In this document: positions 304 to 35,830 of the stretch, one piece after another
Position numbering within the stretch: the stretch's first letter is position 1
Layout: each line of letters opens with the position of its first letter
Assembly (NCBI RefSeq): GCF_000772965.1
Contig: NZ_JPVQ01000011.1
Location: 1-64,000 of the forward strand
DNA length: 64,000 nucleotides
From: Ureibacillus massiliensis 4400831 = CIP 108448 = CCUG 49529
GTDB taxonomy: Bacteria > Bacillota > Bacilli > Bacillales_A > Planococcaceae
Direction of reading: 5' to 3'
The notes under the pieces: model-generated
What the model was told of the DNA's origin: nothing
Database searches by the model: none
The model's input: the letters and a program-made list of their open reading frames with translations, nothing else
Made by a program: the position numbers and the translations under genes

Positions 304-334
304 AACACCACTGATTTTTCAGTGGTGTTTTTTT
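304..334 (+). terminator. Intrinsic terminator, second copy
   Basis: An AACACCACTG...CAGTGGTGTT stem with a seven-T tail. It is nearly identical to the hairpin at 1-29 and follows the 5S-like fragment directly. Confidence 0.8.
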
Positions 335-361
335 GTAATTAAAAAAGCCCCCAACTCTAAG

Positions 362-445
362 AACAAGGTAATTCACCTAAGACAAACAAATGTCCACAAG
401 AAAATATCTCAAAGACCAAACTCTGCCAAGGAATGACAAGAAAGC
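362..445. repeat. Short degenerate 'ACAA' repeat tract; no gene here
   Basis: Words GAACAAGG, GACAAAC, GACCAAA and GACAAGA lie at 362, 381, 414 and 435. The last step is 21 bases and the others about 19 and 33. It may be a worn member of the 21-bp array family seen at 19.4-19.8 kb and 35.3-35.7 kb. The short ORF running through this stretch has no ribosome binding site. The rest of 335-528 holds only the leader of the LysR gene. Confidence 0.3.
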
Positions 446-528
446 ATCTTAAGTTTTTTATTAGTAATAATGTTAAAATAAAATAGGGAATTTTAAGTCG
501 CCAAGTACTTTAAAGAGAGGGAATTTAA

Positions 529-1443
529 TTGACATTACAACAATTAAAATATGTGATTGAAGTTGCAAGAAGTCGATCTATAAGTAAAGCTGCACAGAAT
601 CTATTTATTAGTCAACCAAGTCTTTCAAATGCATTAAAAGAATTGGAGAAGGAAATAGGAATTACGATTTTTTCAAGAACCAATAAAGGAATTATTATTA
701 CCCAAGAGGGGACAGAATTTCTAGGATATGCAAGGCAGGTTGTAGAGCAAGCTGAGCTTCTTGAGAATCGTTATTCAATTAAACAGTCCCAGCAGCAGCA
801 TTTCTCAGTATCGGCTCAACATTATGCATTTGCTGTGAGTGCATTTGTTCGATTGTTAAAAAATTATAACCGTGAAGAGTACGAATTTACGTTAAGAGAA
901 ACTAAGACATATGAAATAATTGAAGATGTTAAAAACTTGCGAAGTGAAATTGGTATCCTTTATATAAACGAATTTAACCAGAAGGTGATTTCTAAATTTC
1001 TTAGAGAGGGAAATTTAGAATTCCATGAGTTATTTGAAGCTAAACCACATGTTTTTATTAGTTCAAAAAATCCTCTTGTAGACCAAGATTATGTTACTTT
1101 ATCTGATTTAATTCCGTATCCATATCTATCCTTTGAACAAGGGGATTATAATTCTTTTTATTTTTCAGAGGAAATATTAAGTACTCTTTCTAGACCGAAA
1201 AATATAAAAGTAAGTGACCGGGCAACCTTATTCAACCTATTAATTGGGTTAAATGGATATACCATATCTACAGGCGTTATAAGTAAAGAATTAAATAGCG
1301 ACATAGTTTCTATTCCGTTGAAGGTGGATGAACGAATTGTCGTGGGCTATATTACACACAAAAATATTTCAAATAGTCGTTTAGCAGATATATATATTGA
1401 CTATTTAAAGGAAACAATCAAGGAAGAACTGTCACAGCTATAG
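529..1443 (+). CDS. LysR-family transcriptional regulator
   Basis: A DNA-binding transcription factor of normal LysR length (304 aa). Residues 1-60 form the winged helix-turn-helix (SISKAAQNLFISQPSLSNAL around 17-36). The rest is the substrate-binding-like effector domain. The TTG start is supported by an AGAGAGGG ribosome binding site 8 bases upstream. The gene lies directly before a methionine-synthase-like gene in the same direction. LysR regulators often control neighbours, so a role in sulfur or methyl metabolism is possible, but the ligand cannot be read from sequence. Confidence 0.9.
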   Translation: MTLQQLKYVIEVARSRSISKAAQNLFISQPSLSNALKELEKEIGITIFSRTNKGIIITQEGTEFLGYARQVVEQAELLENRYSIKQSQQQHFSVSAQHYAFAVSAFVRLLKNYNREEYEFTLRETKTYEIIEDVKNLRSEIGILYINEFNQKVISKFLREGNLEFHELFEAKPHVFISSKNPLVDQDYVTLSDLIPYPYLSFEQGDYNSFYFSEEILSTLSRPKNIKVSDRATLFNLLIGLNGYTISTGVISKELNSDIVSIPLKVDERIVVGYITHKNISNSRLADIYIDYLKETIKEELSQL

Positions 1444-1549
1444 TTTATAACTATGACAAACAATAGATTTTAGGTGTTTCACTATATTGCTAATGGCATG
1501 CTACACTTACATTACTTAATAGAACGATATAGAAAGAAGGAGTGTAATC

Positions 1550-2647
1550 ATGACAAAAACAATAGTAAAAGCACCATTTCGTGCAGATCAGGTAGGGAGC
1601 TTACTACGTTCAGAGACTATAAAAATAGCAAGAAATGAATTAAAAGAAGGGAAAATTTCACAAGAACAGTTCCGTGAAATTGAAGTTCAAGAAATCAAAC
1701 GAATTGTTGATAAGCAAATCGAAGTGGGACTGCAAGCTGTAACTGAAGGAGAATTTGGTCGGGACTGGTGGCATTCGACTTTTATGGAACATCTATTAGG
1801 AGCTGAAGGATATATTCCGGAGCATGGATATGGTTTTAAAAATCAAGAAACAGATCCTTATGATGTTCGCCTTGTGGGAAAAGTTGCTTACAATCCGAGT
1901 CACCCATTTTTCCAACAGGCGAAAGATTTGTTGGAGATTGTTGAAGAAAGAGCTATGGTGAAATTTACTATTCCAAGCCCTAATCAATTCTTCCATCCTG
2001 CTATTATTAATGGACAATATGAAAGCTTTGATGACTTTGCACCAGACATTATTGAAGCATATAGAGAAACGATTAAAGAGTTCTATCGTATTGGTATCCG
2101 ATATATTCAGCTAGATGATGTTTACTTAGCGGTTATTGCAACTTCTGATTTTACACCAGAGGAAAAGAAATATAGAGCGGAATTAGCGGTAAGCGTTGTG
2201 AATAGCATTCTGCAAGATAAACCTGAAGATCTAACAGTTACGACTCATGTATGTAGAGGTAACTACCGTTCAGATTATCATTTTGCAGGAGGGTATGATG
2301 ATATTGCGCCGATTATCTTTGCTAATGAGAAAGTCGATGGATTCTTTTTAGAATATGATACGGAACGTGCAGGTAGCTTTGAGCCTCTTAAACATATTCC
2401 AAAAGGTGGTCCCAAAGTTGTTCTTGGACTAGTTACGTCAAAATTTGGCCAGTTAGAGGATAAAGAGACAATTAAAGCACGTATAAGAGAAGCTTCCCAA
2501 TACGTACCGTTAGAACAACTTTGCATTAGTCCTCAATGCGGCTTTGCTTCAACCCATCACGGTAACAAACTAACAGAAGAAGAACAATGGCAAAAATTAA
2601 AATTTGTTGTGGATGTAGCAAAAGAAGTTTGGGATGACTTTAACTAA
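1550..2647 (+). CDS. Cobalamin-independent methionine synthase II family protein (YxjG/YxjH-like)
   Basis: A 365-aa single-domain homologue of the C-terminal, zinc-binding half of MetE, like B. subtilis YxjG and YxjH. The four expected zinc ligands are visible: H233 and C235 in THVCRGN, E268 in FFLEYD and C330 in SPQCGF. This supports a methyl transfer to a thiol, probably homocysteine. The folate-binding N-terminal half of full MetE is absent, as is normal for the group. A GAAGGAG site precedes the ATG. No S-box riboswitch is visible upstream, unlike many methionine genes in Bacillales. The true methyl donor is unknown. Confidence 0.85.
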   Translation: MTKTIVKAPFRADQVGSLLRSETIKIARNELKEGKISQEQFREIEVQEIKRIVDKQIEVGLQAVTEGEFGRDWWHSTFMEHLLGAEGYIPEHGYGFKNQETDPYDVRLVGKVAYNPSHPFFQQAKDLLEIVEERAMVKFTIPSPNQFFHPAIINGQYESFDDFAPDIIEAYRETIKEFYRIGIRYIQLDDVYLAVIATSDFTPEEKKYRAELAVSVVNSILQDKPEDLTVTTHVCRGNYRSDYHFAGGYDDIAPIIFANEKVDGFFLEYDTERAGSFEPLKHIPKGGPKVVLGLVTSKFGQLEDKETIKARIREASQYVPLEQLCISPQCGFASTHHGNKLTEEEQWQKLKFVVDVAKEVWDDFN

Positions 2648-2834
2648 TATTTTGGAGTAACCATAATAAAATTTGAATCACCTAGTATATGTGAATTTGT
2701 AGCAGGGGAAAGATTTAATTTCTTTTTTCTGCATTTTTTTACTAATGAAGGAAAGTTACTAAATTAAATGGGTATATAAATAAAAAACCAAATTCATACT
2801 AGTTTTGTTAAATAAGAATATGGAGGGCTAAAAT

Positions 2835-4313
2835 ATGGTGCGAGAACCTATTAAGGTCAGTTCAATTATAAATGGCAAAAAAATAGATACAGAACGAACA
2901 TTACCGCGTGAAAATCCTACTCACCCTGATGAAGTTGTTGGATATGCGCCAATTAATACTAGGGAAGAGACAATACAAGCTATTGACGCTGCCTATAATG
3001 CATTTAAAGAGTGGGCTTGGAGCGATGTGGATGATCGTATTGCCAGAATGAAGCGAGCTATTGAAAAAATTAAAGACTCTACTGATGAAATCGCGGAGTT
3101 ATTGTCACGTGAACACGGTAAAGCACTTTATGATTCAAAAGGAGAAATTGCCATCTCACTAATGTGGATGGAATTTGCATGTGACCATGTGAAAGAAGCT
3201 GTAACACCTGAAATTAAAGAACATGAAAATGGGCGAACAATAATAACTTTTGATCCTATAGGTGTTGTTTCAGCAATTACACCATGGAACTATCCGATTT
3301 CTTTATCAACAATTAAAATTGCTCCTGCGTTATTAACGGGAAATACGATGGTTTTAAAACCGAGTCCATTTGCTCCATTAGCAGTTAGTCGCGTATGTGA
3401 AATCATTGCAGACGAATTTCCTCCGGGTGTGTTGAATCTTGTACATGGTGAGGCGGAAGTTGGTGTTGAATTAACGTCGAACGAAAAGGTAGCGAAAATC
3501 GCATTCACAGGTGGAACGAGAACGGCAAAAAGTATTATGAAAGCTGCATCAGAAACGATAAAGAAAATGACACTTGAGCTTGGTGGTAATGATGCTGCCA
3601 TTGTACTCGATAGTTTTGATGTAAATGATGAGCGAGCATTACGTCGAATGGTCATTTCCAACTTCTTAACTGCCGGTCAAATTTGTATGATTGCAAAACG
3701 TGTTTATGTACATCGTTCCATTTATGACAAATTCGTTGAAAAGTATATTGAAGCTGCAAATAAATGGATTCGTTTAGGAGATCCATTTAACCCTGATGTT
3801 ACCGTAGGACCTGTTAATAATAAAAATCAAGTTCAATATGTTCGAAGTCTTGTTGAAAAGGCAGAGAAGGATGGCGCAAAAGTTATTCCACTAGGTCAGA
3901 TTTTAAATCCAGAACTAATGGAAGAAGGATATTTCCTTCAGCCTACACTTGTATTAGAGGCAGACTTTCATGCGGATATTGTGGTAGAAGAACAATTTGG
4001 TCCAACTGTGCCAATCTTACCATTTGATGATGAAGAACAAGTGATTGAATTGCATAACGAAAGTATCTATGGTTTAACAAGCTCTGTTTGGGGAGAAGAA
4101 GAACATGCGATTAAAGTTGCCCGTCGTATTGAAGCGGGGACAACAATGATCAATACAGCAGCCGTACAAGGCTTAGATGTTCGTTTCCCATTCGGTGGTG
4201 TGAAACAGTCAGGTGTTGGACGAGAATACGGTGTTGAAGGAATAAAATCCTATACAGAGACTCACGTGATTAATATTCCTAAAAGCTTAGAATTACCTTA
4301 TATTCCAGAATAA
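2835..4313 (+). CDS. NAD(P)-dependent aldehyde dehydrogenase
   Basis: A full-length ALDH-superfamily enzyme (492 aa) that oxidises an aldehyde to the acid. Visible motifs are PWNYP at 150-154, the coenzyme lysine in LKPSPF (K175), FTGG at 224-227, the general base in LELGG (E248) and the catalytic cysteine in GQICM (C284). The start has a GGAGG site 8 bases upstream. About 190 non-coding bases separate it from the methionine-synthase-like gene. The substrate cannot be assigned; succinate-semialdehyde-like and betaine-aldehyde-like enzymes share these motifs. Confidence 0.9.
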   Translation: MVREPIKVSSIINGKKIDTERTLPRENPTHPDEVVGYAPINTREETIQAIDAAYNAFKEWAWSDVDDRIARMKRAIEKIKDSTDEIAELLSREHGKALYDSKGEIAISLMWMEFACDHVKEAVTPEIKEHENGRTIITFDPIGVVSAITPWNYPISLSTIKIAPALLTGNTMVLKPSPFAPLAVSRVCEIIADEFPPGVLNLVHGEAEVGVELTSNEKVAKIAFTGGTRTAKSIMKAASETIKKMTLELGGNDAAIVLDSFDVNDERALRRMVISNFLTAGQICMIAKRVYVHRSIYDKFVEKYIEAANKWIRLGDPFNPDVTVGPVNNKNQVQYVRSLVEKAEKDGAKVIPLGQILNPELMEEGYFLQPTLVLEADFHADIVVEEQFGPTVPILPFDDEEQVIELHNESIYGLTSSVWGEEEHAIKVARRIEAGTTMINTAAVQGLDVRFPFGGVKQSGVGREYGVEGIKSYTETHVINIPKSLELPYIPE

Positions 4314-4513
4314 AGACTGAAGAAGACAAAAAGGTAAAGAAAGTAATTTCCTTTCTTCACCTTTTCCTTTTTACAAAGCTATTAAGAGACAATGCAGCTA
4401 AGTCAACATATGTGTCAGCGAACAATATATTCCGTTATAAACATAACAAATGCTTTAGCCATTCCATTAATGAAAGATACTTGGTCAATCGGAAGATCCT
4501 TATAATTAAAAGG

Positions 4514-4798
4514 TTACCAACCAAATGCTGAAACTAGTGTAATACCTAGGATGGCTCCTAGTGCAATTCCATAACCTAAGCCGCCACCACCGTAGCCAAA
4601 AGGTCCATATCCATACCCACCACCAAAGCCCCAGAAGCCTAGTCCATACCCACCACGTTCTTTCATCGGTAGAATCCACACCATATCACGATCTACTTTT
4701 GTAATTTTCCCAACATGTTTTCTTCCTTTTTTATCAGTAATACATACAATTTTGCCATGATATTTACAACAAAGTTCATATGCTTGACGTATATGCAT
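4514..4798 (-). CDS. Small protein with Gly/Tyr-rich middle and C-terminal hydrophobic segment
   Basis: A 94-aa protein with a strong AAAGGAGGAA site before the ATG. Residues 1-45 are polar with two adjacent cysteines (ELCCKYHGKIVCITDKKG) and look like a small beta-barrel with KHVGKITKVD. Residues 48-75 are almost all Gly, Tyr and Phe. The end (GIALGAILGITLVSAFGW) could span or dock to a membrane. Small Gly/Tyr-rich proteins of this kind are common among spore coat components, so a spore role is possible, but I do not recognise the family. Confidence 0.75.
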   Translation of the reverse strand: MHIRQAYELCCKYHGKIVCITDKKGRKHVGKITKVDRDMVWILPMKERGGYGLGFWGFGGGYGYGPFGYGGGGLGYGIALGAILGITLVSAFGW

Positions 4799-4906
4799 AT
4801 TCTTTCCTCCTTTCCTACTTAGACTTTTATTAATTTATGCCGTAGTAAGATGAACACACGAGTTAATAGTCTAAAACATAAAATAGAAAAAAAGGAGGAG
4901 TAGGGT

Positions 4907-5755
4907 TTGGCAGTTGAAAATACAAAGGTGATACTTGAGGAAATAGTTGAGATGTCACGATTATTAGTAGAATCATCGCCTAGATTTATTCAGCAAAAAT
5001 TGTTCTATCATCACCTGAAAAGTTATTTTTCCGATGTTCCCCCAGAAGAATTGCTTTTTATTCTTATAAGAAACGGGTTATTTACACCAGAAGAGATAGT
5101 AGACATAGAGTTTACATTAAAACAATTAGAAGAAAAGAATACTTGGAGAATTGTTCAAAAGGAATATGAGAGACTTAAAAAATTATGGAATGGGAAAGAG
5201 ACGCCAATCTTCATCTTTCCATTAACAAAACATCGTCCGAATATTGAAGGGATAATTGCAAATAAAAATGGATTATCTTTTAGGGAAAATATCTTCCTCT
5301 TCATATCCCTAGAATTGGAGGAGACAGAGTTAAAAGCAATGATTGCACACGAATATCATCACTGTTGTAGGCTTGATTATTTAAATAAAGCACCTGAAAA
5401 TATACCATTGAAGGATTCTTTAATTATTGAAGGGATGGCTGAATGCGCAGTTGAGGAATTATATGGATCAAAGTGGTGTTCCCCTTGGATCAATCGATAC
5501 TCATTGGAAGAAATGAAGGAAATTTGGTTCGATAGGTTTGTTCCATATCTAAATAGTAAGGGAGTTATAAAGCACCAACCTTTTTTATATGGAGATGGTA
5601 CTTCTAATTTTCCTAGGTGGATTGGCTATTGTATAGGATATTCTATTGTAAAATCTTTTCTAAAAAAGAATGGACCAATTAATCAAGAAATCTTTATTCA
5701 AACTCCTGCTGATGAATTAATTTCAAGGTCCGATTTTTTTAAACTTTCAAATTAA
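4907..5755 (+). CDS. Predicted Zn-dependent protease, DUF2268 family (YjaZ-like)
   Basis: A 282-aa cytoplasmic protein with a gluzincin-like HEYHH motif at 148-152 (H148, E149, H152). Downstream EGMAECAVEEL (about 172-182) can supply the third metal ligand. This layout fits DUF2268, the family of B. subtilis YjaZ. The start is TTG with an AAAGGAGGAG site. No signal peptide is visible. The substrate is unknown. Confidence 0.8.
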   Translation: MAVENTKVILEEIVEMSRLLVESSPRFIQQKLFYHHLKSYFSDVPPEELLFILIRNGLFTPEEIVDIEFTLKQLEEKNTWRIVQKEYERLKKLWNGKETPIFIFPLTKHRPNIEGIIANKNGLSFRENIFLFISLELEETELKAMIAHEYHHCCRLDYLNKAPENIPLKDSLIIEGMAECAVEELYGSKWCSPWINRYSLEEMKEIWFDRFVPYLNSKGVIKHQPFLYGDGTSNFPRWIGYCIGYSIVKSFLKKNGPINQEIFIQTPADELISRSDFFKLSN

Positions 5756-7519: not shown

Positions 7520-7587
7520 GATAAAGCAAAACAATGATAATCATATATAAATTGTTAAGTTGGTCGGTTCAAATCAATTTAATGAAA

Positions 7588-7658
7588 TCCCACATATATG
7601 CTAGAGAATATGGCTCTAGTGTCTCTACCCGATACCGTAAATATCGGACTATGCGGGA
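7588..7658 (+). promoter_or_regulatory. Guanine riboswitch aptamer
   Basis: A classic purine aptamer. P1 is formed by TCCCACAT and ATGCGGGA, P2 by CTAGAG/CTCTAG (7601 and 7614), and P3 by CCGAT/ATCGG around the ACCGTAAAT loop. The junctions carry GTCTCTACC and GGACTATG. The specificity base is C at 7649, equivalent to C74 of xpt, which pairs with guanine; adenine riboswitches have U. It would switch off the purine operon when guanine or hypoxanthine is plentiful. Confidence 0.93.
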
Positions 7659-7730
7659 AAGCGAACTTTAAGACAGGTTTATAAAAGAGTATGGGATTCT
7701 AATTCCACAAACTTTTTTGTGACCTACTAT

Positions 7731-17779: not shown

Positions 17780-19306
17780 ATGACTAAACGTGCACTTATT
17801 AGTGTTTCGAACAAAGATGGTATTTTAGATTTTGCAAAAGAATTGGTCGCATTAGGCTATGAAATTTTATCAACTGGTGGTACGAAAAAAATGCTACAAG
17901 ATAACAATGTGCCTGTAACAGCTGTTGATGAAGTAACTAAATTTCCCGAAATATTAGATGGCCGTGTTAAAACATTAAATCCTTTAATCCACGGTGGACT
18001 TTTAGGGAAATTTGATGATCCTTCGCATCAAGCACAAATGACAGAACATGGGATTACACCGATTGAAATCGTTTGTGTAAACTTATATCCTTTCGTTGAA
18101 ACAATTTCAAAGCCTGATGTAACATGGGACGATGCAATTGAAAATATTGATATCGGTGGCCCAACAATGTTGCGTTCTGCTGCAAAAAACCATCAGTATG
18201 TAACGGTAATTGTTGATTCTAAAGACTACAATCAAGTTCTTGAAGAATTAAAGGGGCATGGGGCAACTACTCTTGAAACACGTAAACGTTTAGCAGCAAA
18301 AGTATTCCGCCATACAGCAGCTTACGATTCATATATCTCAAACTACCTAACTGAAGAAGACTTTCCTGAAAATTTAACTATGACATACGAATTAAAACAA
18401 ACTTTACGTTACGGTGAAAATCCTCACCAAAAGGCAGCCTTCTACCAAAAACGTCTAGGTTCAGATTTCTCTTTAGCATTTGCAACACAGTTACACGGTA
18501 AAGAATTATCTTATAACAATATTCAAGACGGTAATGCTGCTCTTCAAATTGTAAAAGAATTTGATATCCCAGCAGCAGTGGCTGTAAAACATATGAACCC
18601 TTGTGGTGTAGGAACAGGTGAATCCATTGGAGAAGCATTCGATAAAGCATACGAAGCTGATTCAACTTCAATCTTCGGTGGAATTGTCGCATTGAACCGT
18701 GAAGTTGATGCCGCTTTAGCAGATAAATTAGGTGGTATTTTCTTAGAGATTATTATTGCGCCTTCATTTACAGATGAAGCATTAGAAATATTAACGAAAA
18801 AGAAAAACATCCGTTTAATGACAATCAGCTTTGCTCAAGAAAAACAAGACCAATTCAAAGTAGTATCTGTTGAAGGTGGACTACTTGTTCAAGAGGACGA
18901 TAAATTTGGTTTTAACGAGGCGGATATCAAGGTTGTAACAGATCGTGAACCGACTGAAGAAGAATGGGAAGCATTAAAGCTAGGTTTGGCAGTTGTAAAA
19001 CACGTGAAATCTAATGCAATTGTTGTAAATGATACACAAATGACATTAGGAATCGGCGCAGGCCAAATGAACCGCGTTGGTGCTGCAAAAATTGCTTTAG
19101 AGCAAGCGGGTAGTAAAGCAAAAGGAGCTGTATTAGCGTCAGATGCATTCTTCCCAATGAGCGATACTGTTGAAACTGCTGCAGCTGCAGGAATTACAGC
19201 TATTATTCAACCGGGTGGATCGATTAAGGATCAAGATTCCATCGATAAAGCAAATGAATACGGCATCGCGATGGTATTTACAGGAGTAAGACACTTTAAA
19301 CATTAA
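17780..19306 (+). CDS. purH: Bifunctional AICAR formyltransferase / IMP cyclohydrolase
   Basis: Performs the last two steps to IMP. The 508-aa protein has the cyclohydrolase domain first ([39 protein letters not shown]) and the formyltransferase domain after about residue 195 ([22 protein letters not shown]). A CTGGAGG site precedes the start. In B. subtilis purD follows at once; here about 570 bases of repeat arrays intervene. Confidence 0.97.
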
Positions 19307-19422
19307 GATGTAGTGGACTCAGAGGTTTTATGAGCAAAATTAGTGAAGGTATTGATTACGTTAGTATGATGGGATAAACGATCGAAATAGGGCAACCAAT
19401 CTTAATTAAATCATATTGCTAT

Positions 19423-19548
19423 CTGTTCAAAAAACGGTTTTGCTCTCCAAAGGATTTTTTTCTGCCCAAAAGAGAGCGCTATATGATCCACTGGTTTACT
19501 TATGTGCCCAAAAGACTATGTTGAACGCTCAAAATAAATTAAGTGAAA
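19423..19548. repeat. Degenerate 21-bp array, 'CCCAAAAG' type (about 6 units)
   Basis: CCCAAAAGA occurs at 19465 and 19507, and CTCAAAAT at 19528, all on one 21-base grid. Weaker units fill 19423, 19444 and 19486 on the same grid. No ORF with a ribosome binding site lies here. It precedes, and probably belongs to the same class as, the tighter array at 19632. Confidence 0.55.
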
Positions 19549-19558
19549 ATTACAGCTT

Positions 19559-19589
19559 AACGCCTTCGGAAATTAGAGGGCGTTTTGTC
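19559..19589 (+). terminator. Weak terminator-like hairpin after purH
   Basis: AACGCC (19559) pairs with GGCGTT (19579), followed by TTGTCT. The stem is short and the T-run imperfect. It lies between the two repeat arrays and could reduce read-through from purH into purD. Confidence 0.35.
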
Positions 19590-19631
19590 TAAGTCTTTAT
19601 ATAAAATCATCTAGATAAGGACATTCCGGTT

Positions 19632-19839
19632 GGACAAAAATGATTTCCGAACGGACAAAATGTTGAACCAAGCGGACAAAACTTCAGCTTAAGTGGACAA
19701 TATGTATCCCTGAATGGACAAAAAAATATAATCTGGACAAAAGAGGATCCAGAGTGGACAAAACGTTAAACCGAACGGACAAAGCGCACCTCTAAGTGGA
19801 CAAAACCACAACCCGAACGGACAAAAACAATCTTCAAAT
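19632..19839. repeat. Ten-unit 21-bp array, 'GGACAAAA' type, between purH and purD
   Basis: GGACAA starts at 19632, 19653, 19674, 19695, 19716, 19735, 19756, 19777, 19798 and 19819. Every step is 21 bases except one of 19. The rest of the unit varies but often ends in CCGAAC or TAAGT. It is not CRISPR: the conserved part is only 7-8 bases and there are no cas genes. The reverse strand reads as FCPLxxx heptads but has no start signal. It ends about 40 bases before purD. Confidence 0.9.
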
Positions 19840-19878
19840 AACCGAAAATGATATATATTACAAGGGAGGGCTTCTGAA

Positions 19879-21135
19879 ATGAAAGTACTCGTAATCGGAA
19901 GTGGAGGCCGCGAGCACGCGATAGCGAAAAAATTTAGCATCGCGCCTTCTGTAGAAAAAGTATTTGTTGCACCTGGTAATGATGGAATGCGTCAAGATGC
20001 AGAAATCGTGCCAATCGATGCGCTTAACTTTGAGGAACTGGCAAGTTTTGCGAAAGAAAAAAATATTGATTTAACTTTTGTAGGTCCTGAACAACCTTTA
20101 GCTGCAGGAATTGTTGATTATTTTCAAAAAGAAAACTTAACCATTTTCGGACCAACAAAAGCGGCTGCGCGGATTGAAGGAAGTAAATCCTATGCAAAAC
20201 AAATTATGAAAAAATATAACATCCCAACGGCTGCTTACGAAACATTCACTGAGGCAGAACAGGCTATACGATACGTTAAAGAACAGGGTGCGCCTATTGT
20301 GGTAAAAGCTGATGGTCTAGCTGCAGGAAAAGGTGTAATTGTTGCCATGACTGAGGAGGAAGCAATCGAAGCAATCAACGATATGATAGGCAATCAACGC
20401 TTTGGTGAATCCTCTTCCCGTGTTGTTATTGAAGAATTTTTGGATGGTGAAGAATTCTCATTCATGTCATTTGTACATAAAGGACAAATCTATCCAATGG
20501 TTATTGCACAAGATCATAAACGTGCTTACGATGGAGATAAAGGACCGAATACGGGAGGTATGGGCGCATATTCACCAGTACCTCAAATTCCTCAAGAGGT
20601 CGTTTCTCGCGCGTACATTGAAATTGTTGAACCAACAGTGAAAGCTATGGAAGAAGAAGGTGCATCTTTTACAGGTATTTTATATGCCGGGTTGATCTTA
20701 ACAAACCAAGGCCCAAAAGTAATTGAATTCAACGCACGATTTGGAGACCCCGAAACTCAGGTTGTCCTACCAAGAATGACTTCTGATTTTGGTTTGTTCA
20801 TGAAAGCGTTAATGGAAGAAAAATTCTATGACTTACAATGGTCTAACGAAGCAATGTTAGGTGTAGTAATAGCGGCAGATGGTTATCCAGAAACAGTAAC
20901 GAAAGGTAATCCACTTCCAAACTTGGATGAGTTAAGTCAAAACTTCGACGTTTACCATGCTGGAACAAAGGTAATCGATGGACAATATGTAGGAAACGGT
21001 GGCCGTGTGCTTTTAGTTGCAACAAAAGCAGAAACACTAAAAGAAGCACAAGAAAAGGTTTATGAAGGACTTAATAAATTTGAATGGCGTCAATTCTTCT
21101 ATCGTAAAGATATAGGCTGGCGCACGTTTAAATAA
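19879..21135 (+). CDS. purD: Phosphoribosylamine-glycine ligase (GAR synthetase)
   Basis: An ATP-grasp enzyme that joins phosphoribosylamine and glycine. The 418-aa protein has VLVIGSGGREHAIA at the start, VKADGLAAGKGV and FNARFGDPETQ. An AAGGGAGGG site precedes the ATG. It is the last purine gene and is followed by a strong terminator. The repeat-filled gap upstream raises the question whether it still depends on the purE promoter; no convincing promoter of its own is seen. Confidence 0.97.
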   Translation: MKVLVIGSGGREHAIAKKFSIAPSVEKVFVAPGNDGMRQDAEIVPIDALNFEELASFAKEKNIDLTFVGPEQPLAAGIVDYFQKENLTIFGPTKAAARIEGSKSYAKQIMKKYNIPTAAYETFTEAEQAIRYVKEQGAPIVVKADGLAAGKGVIVAMTEEEAIEAINDMIGNQRFGESSSRVVIEEFLDGEEFSFMSFVHKGQIYPMVIAQDHKRAYDGDKGPNTGGMGAYSPVPQIPQEVVSRAYIEIVEPTVKAMEEEGASFTGILYAGLILTNQGPKVIEFNARFGDPETQVVLPRMTSDFGLFMKALMEEKFYDLQWSNEAMLGVVIAADGYPETVTKGNPLPNLDELSQNFDVYHAGTKVIDGQYVGNGGRVLLVATKAETLKEAQEKVYEGLNKFEWRQFFYRKDIGWRTFK

Positions 21136-35221: not shown

Positions 35222-35268
35222 AAACGCTCCTTGTAAGCATTTTTGCTTGCGAGGGGCGTTTTTTTTTA
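35222..35268 (+). terminator. Terminator of gatCAB
   Basis: AACGCTCCTTGTAAGC pairs with GCTTGCGAGGGGCGTT, followed by a run of eight or more T. Confidence 0.88.
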
Positions 35269-35315: not shown

Positions 35316-35703
35316 AATAGACAACTTCGTAATTAATAGCCAAAGCGCAGAGGATAATAGACAAACAGAGCTCGATAATAGACAAACATGGCTGGATAAT
35401 AGCCAAAGCGGATAGGATAATAGACAACGCGAAAATAATAGCCAAAGCGCAGAGGATAATAGACAAACATTGATGGATAATAGACAAAGGGGATAAGATA
35501 ATAGCCAAAGCGGATAGGATAATAGACAACGCGAAAATAATAGCCAAAGCGGATAGGATAATAGCCAAAAAGAGTTCGATAATAGACAAACATGGCTGGA
35601 TAATAGAGAAAGCCTTTAGGATAATAGACAACCCGAAAATAATAGACATTCGAATCCAGATAATAGACAATTCTCACAAAATAATAGACATCACCAAATT
35701 CAT
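35316..35703. repeat. Nineteen-unit 21-bp array, 'ATAATAGACAAA' type
   Basis: AATAG starts at 35316, 35335, 35356, 35377, 35398, 35419, 35437, 35458, 35479, 35500, 35521, 35539, 35560, 35581, 35602, 35623, 35641, 35662 and 35683. Fourteen steps are 21 bases, three are 18 and one is 19. The fullest unit is GGATAATAGACAAAC plus six variable bases; a GCCAAAG version alternates with GACAAAC. A two-unit block carrying GACAACGCGAAAATAATAG occurs twice, which suggests local duplication. The array fills the gap between the gatB terminator and the next gene. The minus strand is open in more than one frame as heptad repeats, but no ribosome binding site is present. Confidence 0.93.
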
Positions 35704-35830
35704 ATACAATCTAATGAGAAACAGAAAATATCTCCATACTAATGAAAAGCATCCTAACCCAAATCAAAAAAATTGTAATTCAATTTGTAAATCGGCAAAA
35801 TGGAATTAATAATAAGGGAGGTATTTTCTT

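Follow-up and report, generated by a model that had tools for sequence, protein, structure and literature searches.

REP/BIME elements of bacteria lie at gene ends, CRISPR spacers measure about 26-72 bp, plasmid iterons are direct repeats of 17-22 bp beside a rep gene and an origin, and the Sal-box/TTF-I arrays of eukaryotic rDNA are directional rows of short sites that block polymerase behind a transcription unit. Here we describe a ten-unit direct-repeat array between purH and purD in a 64,000-nucleotide stretch of Ureibacillus massiliensis DNA (contig NZ_JPVQ01000011.1, positions 1 to 64,000; hereafter the window), together with arrays of the same geometry elsewhere in this genome and in its relatives. 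In each unit about 13 bp form a conserved core without palindromic symmetry (TGARTGGACAAAA in this array), beside 7-8 bp of free spacer; over the arrays compared the free spacer measures 7-13 bp, a length outside the range of CRISPR spacers. The 21-bp period fits that of iterons; among array neighbours read by eye, which were not run against family libraries, no rep gene was noticed. Sal-box/TTF-I arrays serve as a working model only, since they belong to a different domain of life and no homology is claimed.

The nearest described kind is the STAR elements of Staphylococcus (PMC3532100). In the parts of that account on which we draw, STAR elements, too, are direct repeats scattered through intergenic DNA; they share a short conserved motif, their spacers are particular to each locus, their copy number varies, their function is not established and their abundance differs between species; they differ in having one GC-rich 14-bp motif, spacers of at least 40 bp and locations that are not conserved between species. 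The arrays here have instead a 21-bp period, a common five-unit order and a core that varies from species to species, and they occupy the purH-purD gap in 15 of 23 readable genomes of the genus, the source genome counted. A spacing of 21 bp lies below the STAR spacer of about 40 bp or more, and the STAR motif T(G/A/T)TGTTG(G/T)GGCCC(C/A), with up to two mismatches, matched the window three times (2.39 expected) and the arrays not at all. REP/BIME elements, as far as their descriptions are drawn on here, are also high-copy extragenic repeats in composite arrays, but REP units are palindromic and alternate in orientation within BIMEs, whereas our arrays consist of direct repeats without palindromic symmetry and show no more structure than shuffles.

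Other described repeats share single traits. The TAACTGA repeats of Beggiatoaceae (PMC4679880) are, in the portion of the source used, intergenic direct repeats of patchy distribution with a proposed role as binding sites; by that description they are set apart from the 21-bp phased units, mostly at gene 3' ends, reported here. In RemA binding regions, studied in Bacillus and Geobacillus, an oligomer binds direct repeats that stand in rows, and it may wrap the DNA (PMC8481266). The same excerpt gives 7-bp protected sites at 3-bp intervals (period 10), modestly conserved and upstream of promoters, against a period of 21 here. The 'false CRISPRs' (PMC5294841), repeat-spacer-like elements without cas genes, form a general bin that could take in such arrays; in the section of that lookalike catalogue considered, the classes are the STAR motif and tandem or simple repeats, and a 21-bp phased family is not among them. 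In searches of open-access papers, some aimed at such arrays and others at known kinds, we recognised none that describes them.

The array between purH and purD and its counterparts in the genome

The array is real, and all its coordinates match the preliminary description, which had placed ten GGACAA cores on a near-perfect 21-bp grid. The cores start at 19632, 19653, 19674, 19695, 19716, 19735, 19756, 19777, 19798 and 19819, with intervals of 21, 21, 21, 21, 19, 21, 21, 21 and 21 bp (eight of 21, one of 19), and 200 first-order Markov copies of the window held at most three GGACAA per 210 bp. The array begins 325 bp 3' of the purH stop and ends 39 bp 5' of the purD start; an extra GGACA at 19619 lies outside the grid. 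As that description also held, an array at 35.3 kb has a different unit and the same period: it has 19 cores of the form ATAG(A/C/G)(C/G)A, and its steps measure 21 bp, except that every fifth is 18 or 19. The features concerned are as follows.

19632..19839, + strand: ten-unit array with GGACAAAA-type core, two five-unit blocks with a 19-bp link between them
17780..19306, + strand: open reading frame (ORF) upstream, which we take from sequence knowledge to be purH; stop at 19306
19879..21135, + strand: ORF downstream, likewise presumed to be purD; ATG at 19879
about 19560..19583, + strand: terminator-like hairpin, then T-rich sequence, between purH and the array (own script)
about 19424..19534, - strand: six decayed opposite-strand units (by eye, without a chance estimate)
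35317..35704, + strand: second array, lying between gatB and the gene that follows it; GATAATAGACAAA-type core, 19 units, higher-order repeat of 102 bp
35225..35258, + strand: terminator-like hairpin after gatB and before the second array (coordinates derived from distances)

In the source genome (G000), phased GACAA triplets occur at 121 places against one for the reversed pattern. Among the matches listed there are about 13 array stretches, including those of the window; three of them (C55, the start of C78, and C93) lie at contig ends, so the count may include pieces of a single array. This genome has two types of core, TGARTGGACAAAA and GATAATAGACAAA. Long arrays exist of both, and many of these have a higher-order repeat of 102-103 bp, the length of four full steps of 21 bp plus a shorter one of 18 or 19.

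Step lengths were counted over 98 arrays from 18 genomes. Steps of 21 bp make up 349 of 476 in type A and 334 of 473 in type B arrays, steps of 18-20 bp number 59 and 57, respectively, and most others measure about 40 or 60 bp, as if one core had been missed. In the 40 arrays of at least 190 bp, the best self-match at lags of 60 bp or more falls at 102 or 103 bp in 19, and this lag is best or second in 25; such arrays occur in genera g1, g5 and g13 and across several cores. Exactly five units were counted in 9 of 12 arrays of G158, and one array there that was scored as four units contains an altered fifth. Helical phase is kept only within blocks; phasing of entire arrays was considered and rejected, since the short links contradict it.

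Different words at a shared site

Close relatives had been expected to have only a few bases between purH and purD. In this genus that expectation does not hold: the purD N-terminal 174 aa found a match in 25 of 25 genus genomes, and the gaps that could be read measure 89 to 1408 bp. The arrays in the 15 occupied gaps are built from different words: GGACAAAA in G125 and G099, as in G000; CGCACATAAA in G149 and G158; CGCAAGTAA in G106, G119, G137 and G157; CGCACGTAA in G154; CGCCCATAAA in G081; CGCAAATAGA in G131; a CGCTCGTAA-type core in G155; a worn CGCACATA-type core in G143; and a long CGCAARTA array in G151. An array in G153 is doubtful, and seven gaps shorter than 130 bp have none (G152 has one unit). 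Self-matching that uses no motif put lag 21 best or next best in 12 of 14 parsed gaps of at least 130 bp, a test that left out G113, G151 and G156 and parsed G099 wrongly; G155 gave lag 42 first and lag 21 third. Shuffles reached the self-match at lag 20-22 in 194 of 300 cases for G153, 5 for G157, 2 for G137 and none for the others.

Among 25 genus genomes, phased GACAA triplets number 121 in G000, 88 in G125, 41 in G099, 11 in G158 and 6 in G060; in seven more the count is 1 or 2, close to that of the control. Phased CGCA(A/C)(A/G)TA triplets, from 0 to 320 per genome, are present in 12 of the 25, absent from G000, G125 and G099, and without a control match; G158 has both kinds. The preliminary description had pointed to a shared core, ACAAA, but this is not what stays constant: the core differs between species and the geometry stays. 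Its broader proposal, that separately homogenised units with one period reflect a common constraint, extends far beyond the window into relatives; these keep the period and, mostly, the placement at gene ends, and the arrays at random places or without a fixed period that would have spoken against it were not seen.

GGACAA triplets were found in 9 of 151 genomes of the family, and a wider sample of 261 genomes, all of the same family, had at least one exact RGACAA triplet in 24; a large share of them are tandem repeats, either exact or of coding-like appearance, and by eye about 12 genomes, Lysinibacillus odysseyi (G037) among them, have arrays with unlike spacers. A loose scan of named genomes gave at least 119 stretches, from which seven loci of Bacillus-like organisms were read: RGACAA arrays with unlike spacers stand in Fictibacillus gelatini, Lysinibacillus odysseyi, Bacillus pakistanensis (two loci), Paenibacillus sp. 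BSR1-1 and Thalassobacillus cyri, and a Neobacillus locus looks like a coding repeat and was set aside. Viral spread was also considered and rejected. None of the 49 IMG/VR stretches that matched (47 and 2) is a convincing array: of the 28 viewed, nearly all are tandem repeats, exact or with similar spacers, an open frame on one strand overlaps most of them, one has unlike spacers but lies inside a sense ORF, and the matches beyond these 28 lie in a sense ORF with similar spacers.

Array sites differ in how widely they are kept. At rho-tdk and spoIIID-mbl, arrays are also present in G125 and G099, and a phased 7-mer search found no clear array at these places in most other genus members (G157 was left out at both places and G149 at mbl). 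The purH-purD gap is thus a widely kept array site; rho-tdk and spoIIID-mbl are not. By eye, a GGACAA array of G158 (C16, tdk at 72942) stands between rho and rpmE, unlike the array near tdk in G000 and G125, which stands behind rpmE. Upstream of mbl in G099 (L245), a GGACAAA array is followed by a GATCACATA-type array, both sense to mbl, again by eye.

Conserved cores and near-random spacers

Within a genome, units from different loci share the core and little else. The comparison covered 320 to 4949 unit pairs per genome, with units found by the core word, so that 5-8 positions are thereby fixed. In the spacer middle, units are 0.19-0.36 identical between loci, near chance. At core positions outside the search word, identity is 0.94-0.98 in G000, 0.97-1.00 in G151, 0.92-1.00 in G037 (three of four positions before the word) and 0.89-0.92 in G147 (two before the word); in G158 it is 1.00 at the ninth base and 0.80-0.91 just before the word. 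Some free core positions are lower, such as 0.50 at an A/G position in G151. Copying of whole arrays alone does not explain the shared core, because free core positions are alike and spacers near chance; the same spacer identity disfavours recent copying, and a recently copied five-unit founder in G158, considered separately, was rejected since spacers between its loci are near chance identity.

The one orthologous pair compared, the purH-purD arrays of G000 and its nearest relative G125, points the same way for this single pair: eight core positions differ at 3 of 80 bases and the others at 27 of 128 (Fisher p=4e-4), or at 3 of 72 and 21 of 115 (p=0.006) without the poorly aligned tenth unit. 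All nine inter-core intervals are equal in length, and the flanking purD and purH DNA is 92-93% identical. The comparison points to selection: from species to species the word changes, the arrays of a genome have it in common, and throughout the period and a common order of five units are retained. That the word is shared within a genome and differs between close species also calls for either a trans-acting reader or a copying process.

Placement behind genes

The arrays are found at the 3' ends of genes and for the most part run in sense. Taking ORFs of at least 90 aa as neighbours, we found that of 90 array sites 48 lie in sense and 9 in antisense between co-directional genes, 30 between convergent and 3 between divergent ones; in the same loci, gaps of at least 150 bp without an array were 51 co-directional, 4 convergent and 14 divergent. 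Two of the nine antisense calls are doubtful, as L208 is convergent in another analysis and L168 has an 81-aa sense ORF downstream, and small missed genes turned two other calls (L312, L330) to sense. For the 79 arrays behind a sense gene, a terminator was called before the array in 49, only after it in 2 and on neither side in 28; terminators were called behind 14 of 32 array-free genes and in 7 of 300 shuffled pieces.

In the purH-purD gap, the hairpin at 19560-19583 comes from our own script, and a general terminator scan with other stem rules did not call it; by eye, a similar hairpin lies 3' of purH in most purH-purD gaps of relatives. The decayed minus-strand units (for example GGGCACATA, GATCATATA and GGGCAGAAA; spacing 21, 21, 21, 19 and 20 bp) sit between purH and this hairpin and have a core type different from that of the ten-unit array, and G099 has a better-kept opposite-strand array at the same place. 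A consensus search found no promoter in 19200-20000. At gathering scores, Rfam gave a single match in the whole window, the purine riboswitch at 7572-7671, and thus no described RNA family for the arrays of the window. This aptamer (RF00167, 86.7 bits, + strand), about 10 kb 5' of purH, is expected to control the pur operon.

A coding role was considered and rejected by reasoning, as the steps of 18, 19, 20 and 21 bp in GGACAA arrays break any one frame. Repetitive open frames of 83-235 aa do run on the opposite strand (window 19689-19940; L159 3904-4527; L160 3865-4533; L165 3870-4577; all -); these long antisense ORFs look spurious and can be attributed to the pyrimidine-rich strand, and annotation pipelines may call them proteins. 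Elsewhere, a 412-aa ORF of G125 (L202, 1088-2326), by eye like a group II intron reverse transcriptase, ends 232 bp before a sense array. Terminators are likewise followed by insertions of class C group II introns.

What the arrays may do

What could keep a geometry and let the word change? We favour, tentatively, the possibility that the arrays are head-to-tail sites of a DNA-binding factor and perhaps a polar barrier behind genes. The purH-purD array would then be one member of a dispersed family of putative protein-binding-site arrays, whose sites are most likely bound side by side by a chromosome-encoded, sequence-specific factor. Within blocks, successive sites would face the same side of the helix, because 21 bp amounts to two turns of B-DNA, and the blocks, often of five units, would be joined by the 18-20-bp links. 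The recognition sequence would have changed from one species to another, with each genome's arrays following suit and the period and the placement behind genes staying as they were. The likeliest job would be to form an insulator or a polar nucleoprotein barrier at the 3' end of a gene and so to stop or slow polymerases that leak past it. The period, the recurring order of five, the contrast of conserved cores with near-random spacers and the sense-biased placement at 3' ends are observations; the protein, its binding to DNA rather than RNA, and the barrier function are what we infer, the last from the place of the arrays behind genes.

Several other explanations have to be weighed against this one. 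The arrays might instead act as RNA, with single-stranded motifs in read-through transcripts or 3' untranslated regions binding an RNA-binding protein or a complementary small RNA as a stability element or sponge. The excess of sense over antisense arrays in co-directional pairs (48 against 9) suits such a role, as do G158 arrays that start a few bases after a stop codon (L314, L315), a terminator that by eye follows the array in L313, and the type B sense strand, which is less structured than shuffles (folding z on average 1.02 over 40 arrays, against -0.31 over 46 of type A). Flexible RNA, however, needs no exact 21-nt spacing with free spacer sequence, a terminator call precedes the array in 49 of 79 cases behind a sense gene, nine sites, two of them doubtful, were called antisense to both neighbours, and a decayed array near purH stands on the opposite strand. 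A DNA-binding factor is favoured over an RNA role because of the constant-length free spacer, the two turns per unit, the lack of any excess of RNA structure and the many arrays past terminators, and we consider the RNA role unlikely. Much less probable still is the proposal of the preliminary description that the GGA motifs titrate CsrA. In CsrA sponge RNAs the GGA motif recurs, as a rule within hairpin loops; the source genome has csrA (G000:C85) and the GGACAAAA cores contain GGA, but GGA is absent from the core of the sibling ATAGACAA arrays in the same genome and of the CGCA-type arrays in sister species, and csrA is present in 23 of 25 genus genomes whichever core they have. Nor is a hairpin display of GGA indicated, because array RNA is not more structured than shuffles. 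The sponge, already speculative when proposed, becomes very improbable.

Selfish or neutral minisatellites, spread between gene ends and enlarged by unequal exchange, would hold their core in common by descent and not by function. Blocks have expanded and contracted, with self-identity at the best higher-order lag of up to 0.93, array numbers vary greatly between genomes (0 to 320 CGCA-type triplets), similar blocks lie by eye at different loci of G000 and G125, and most genus members have no detected array at rho-tdk and spoIIID-mbl. On the other side, spacers compared between loci are near chance and cores alike, the core changes less than the spacer in the one orthologous pair, and the period persists despite differing cores; we consider this origin, too, improbable. 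An element of DNA topology, with phased sites that serve gyrase, HU or similar proteins by bending or wrapping the DNA and that absorb transcription supercoils, would fit the 21-bp phase and the 3'-end and convergent placement; upstream genes such as eno, an S-layer gene and rpmE (named by eye) are likely strongly expressed, and a supercoil-absorbing role has been proposed for BIMEs of E. coli. A strict genome-specific word is unexpected for bendability alone. AA steps recur at 21 bp, but at 10-11 bp reach 0.65-0.71 of expectation in type A and 1.30-1.35 in type B arrays; simple A-tract curvature is not general because this 10-11-bp recurrence is inconsistent, and intrinsic curvature was rejected on the same ground. 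We regard a topological role as quite unlikely.

Some observations weigh against the DNA-binding factor itself. We found no binding protein for the arrays. The sense bias would suit RNA as well as DNA, the 18-20-bp links break helical phase, and in 15 of the 40 long arrays the two leading higher-order lags are different ones (82, 93, 124, 145, multiples and others). The sites at rho-tdk and spoIIID-mbl are not kept in most genus members. The placement tests (sense against antisense, p=1.5e-7; convergent against divergent, p=1e-6) are optimistic, because orthologous loci were counted apart and the loci are the top of the matches listed, and a special tie to terminators does not follow from the calls, because 49 of 79 is only somewhat commoner than 14 of 32 and 28 of 79 have no call. 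Orientation is also associated with the chromosome half: for G143 and G119 the listed arrays are all + in one half and all - in the other, with halves drawn without a located origin and terminus, and L274 and L333, antisense to both neighbours, point as purD or mbl and tdk do on their contigs. A strict orientation by chromosome half was nevertheless rejected, contradicted in G158 by two arrays about 10 kb apart in opposite directions.

Implications

Rows of direct repeats between genes are common in bacteria and any role for them is rarely decidable; here the question becomes testable. With rather more doubt than attaches to the binding sites themselves, we suggest that the arrays may represent an undescribed chromosomal system in a family of Bacillota that includes Lysinibacillus odysseyi, in which a dedicated factor would read head-to-tail sites behind genes, as a rule in blocks of five and at two-turn spacing, and turnover of the word would rewrite the arrays as a set. 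If this is true, arrays rewritten genome-wide with their geometry kept would be a bacterial parallel to the fast-evolving recognition of centromeres or recombination sites, and comparing the reader protein among species that differ in the word would reveal how a protein changes together with the many sites it binds.
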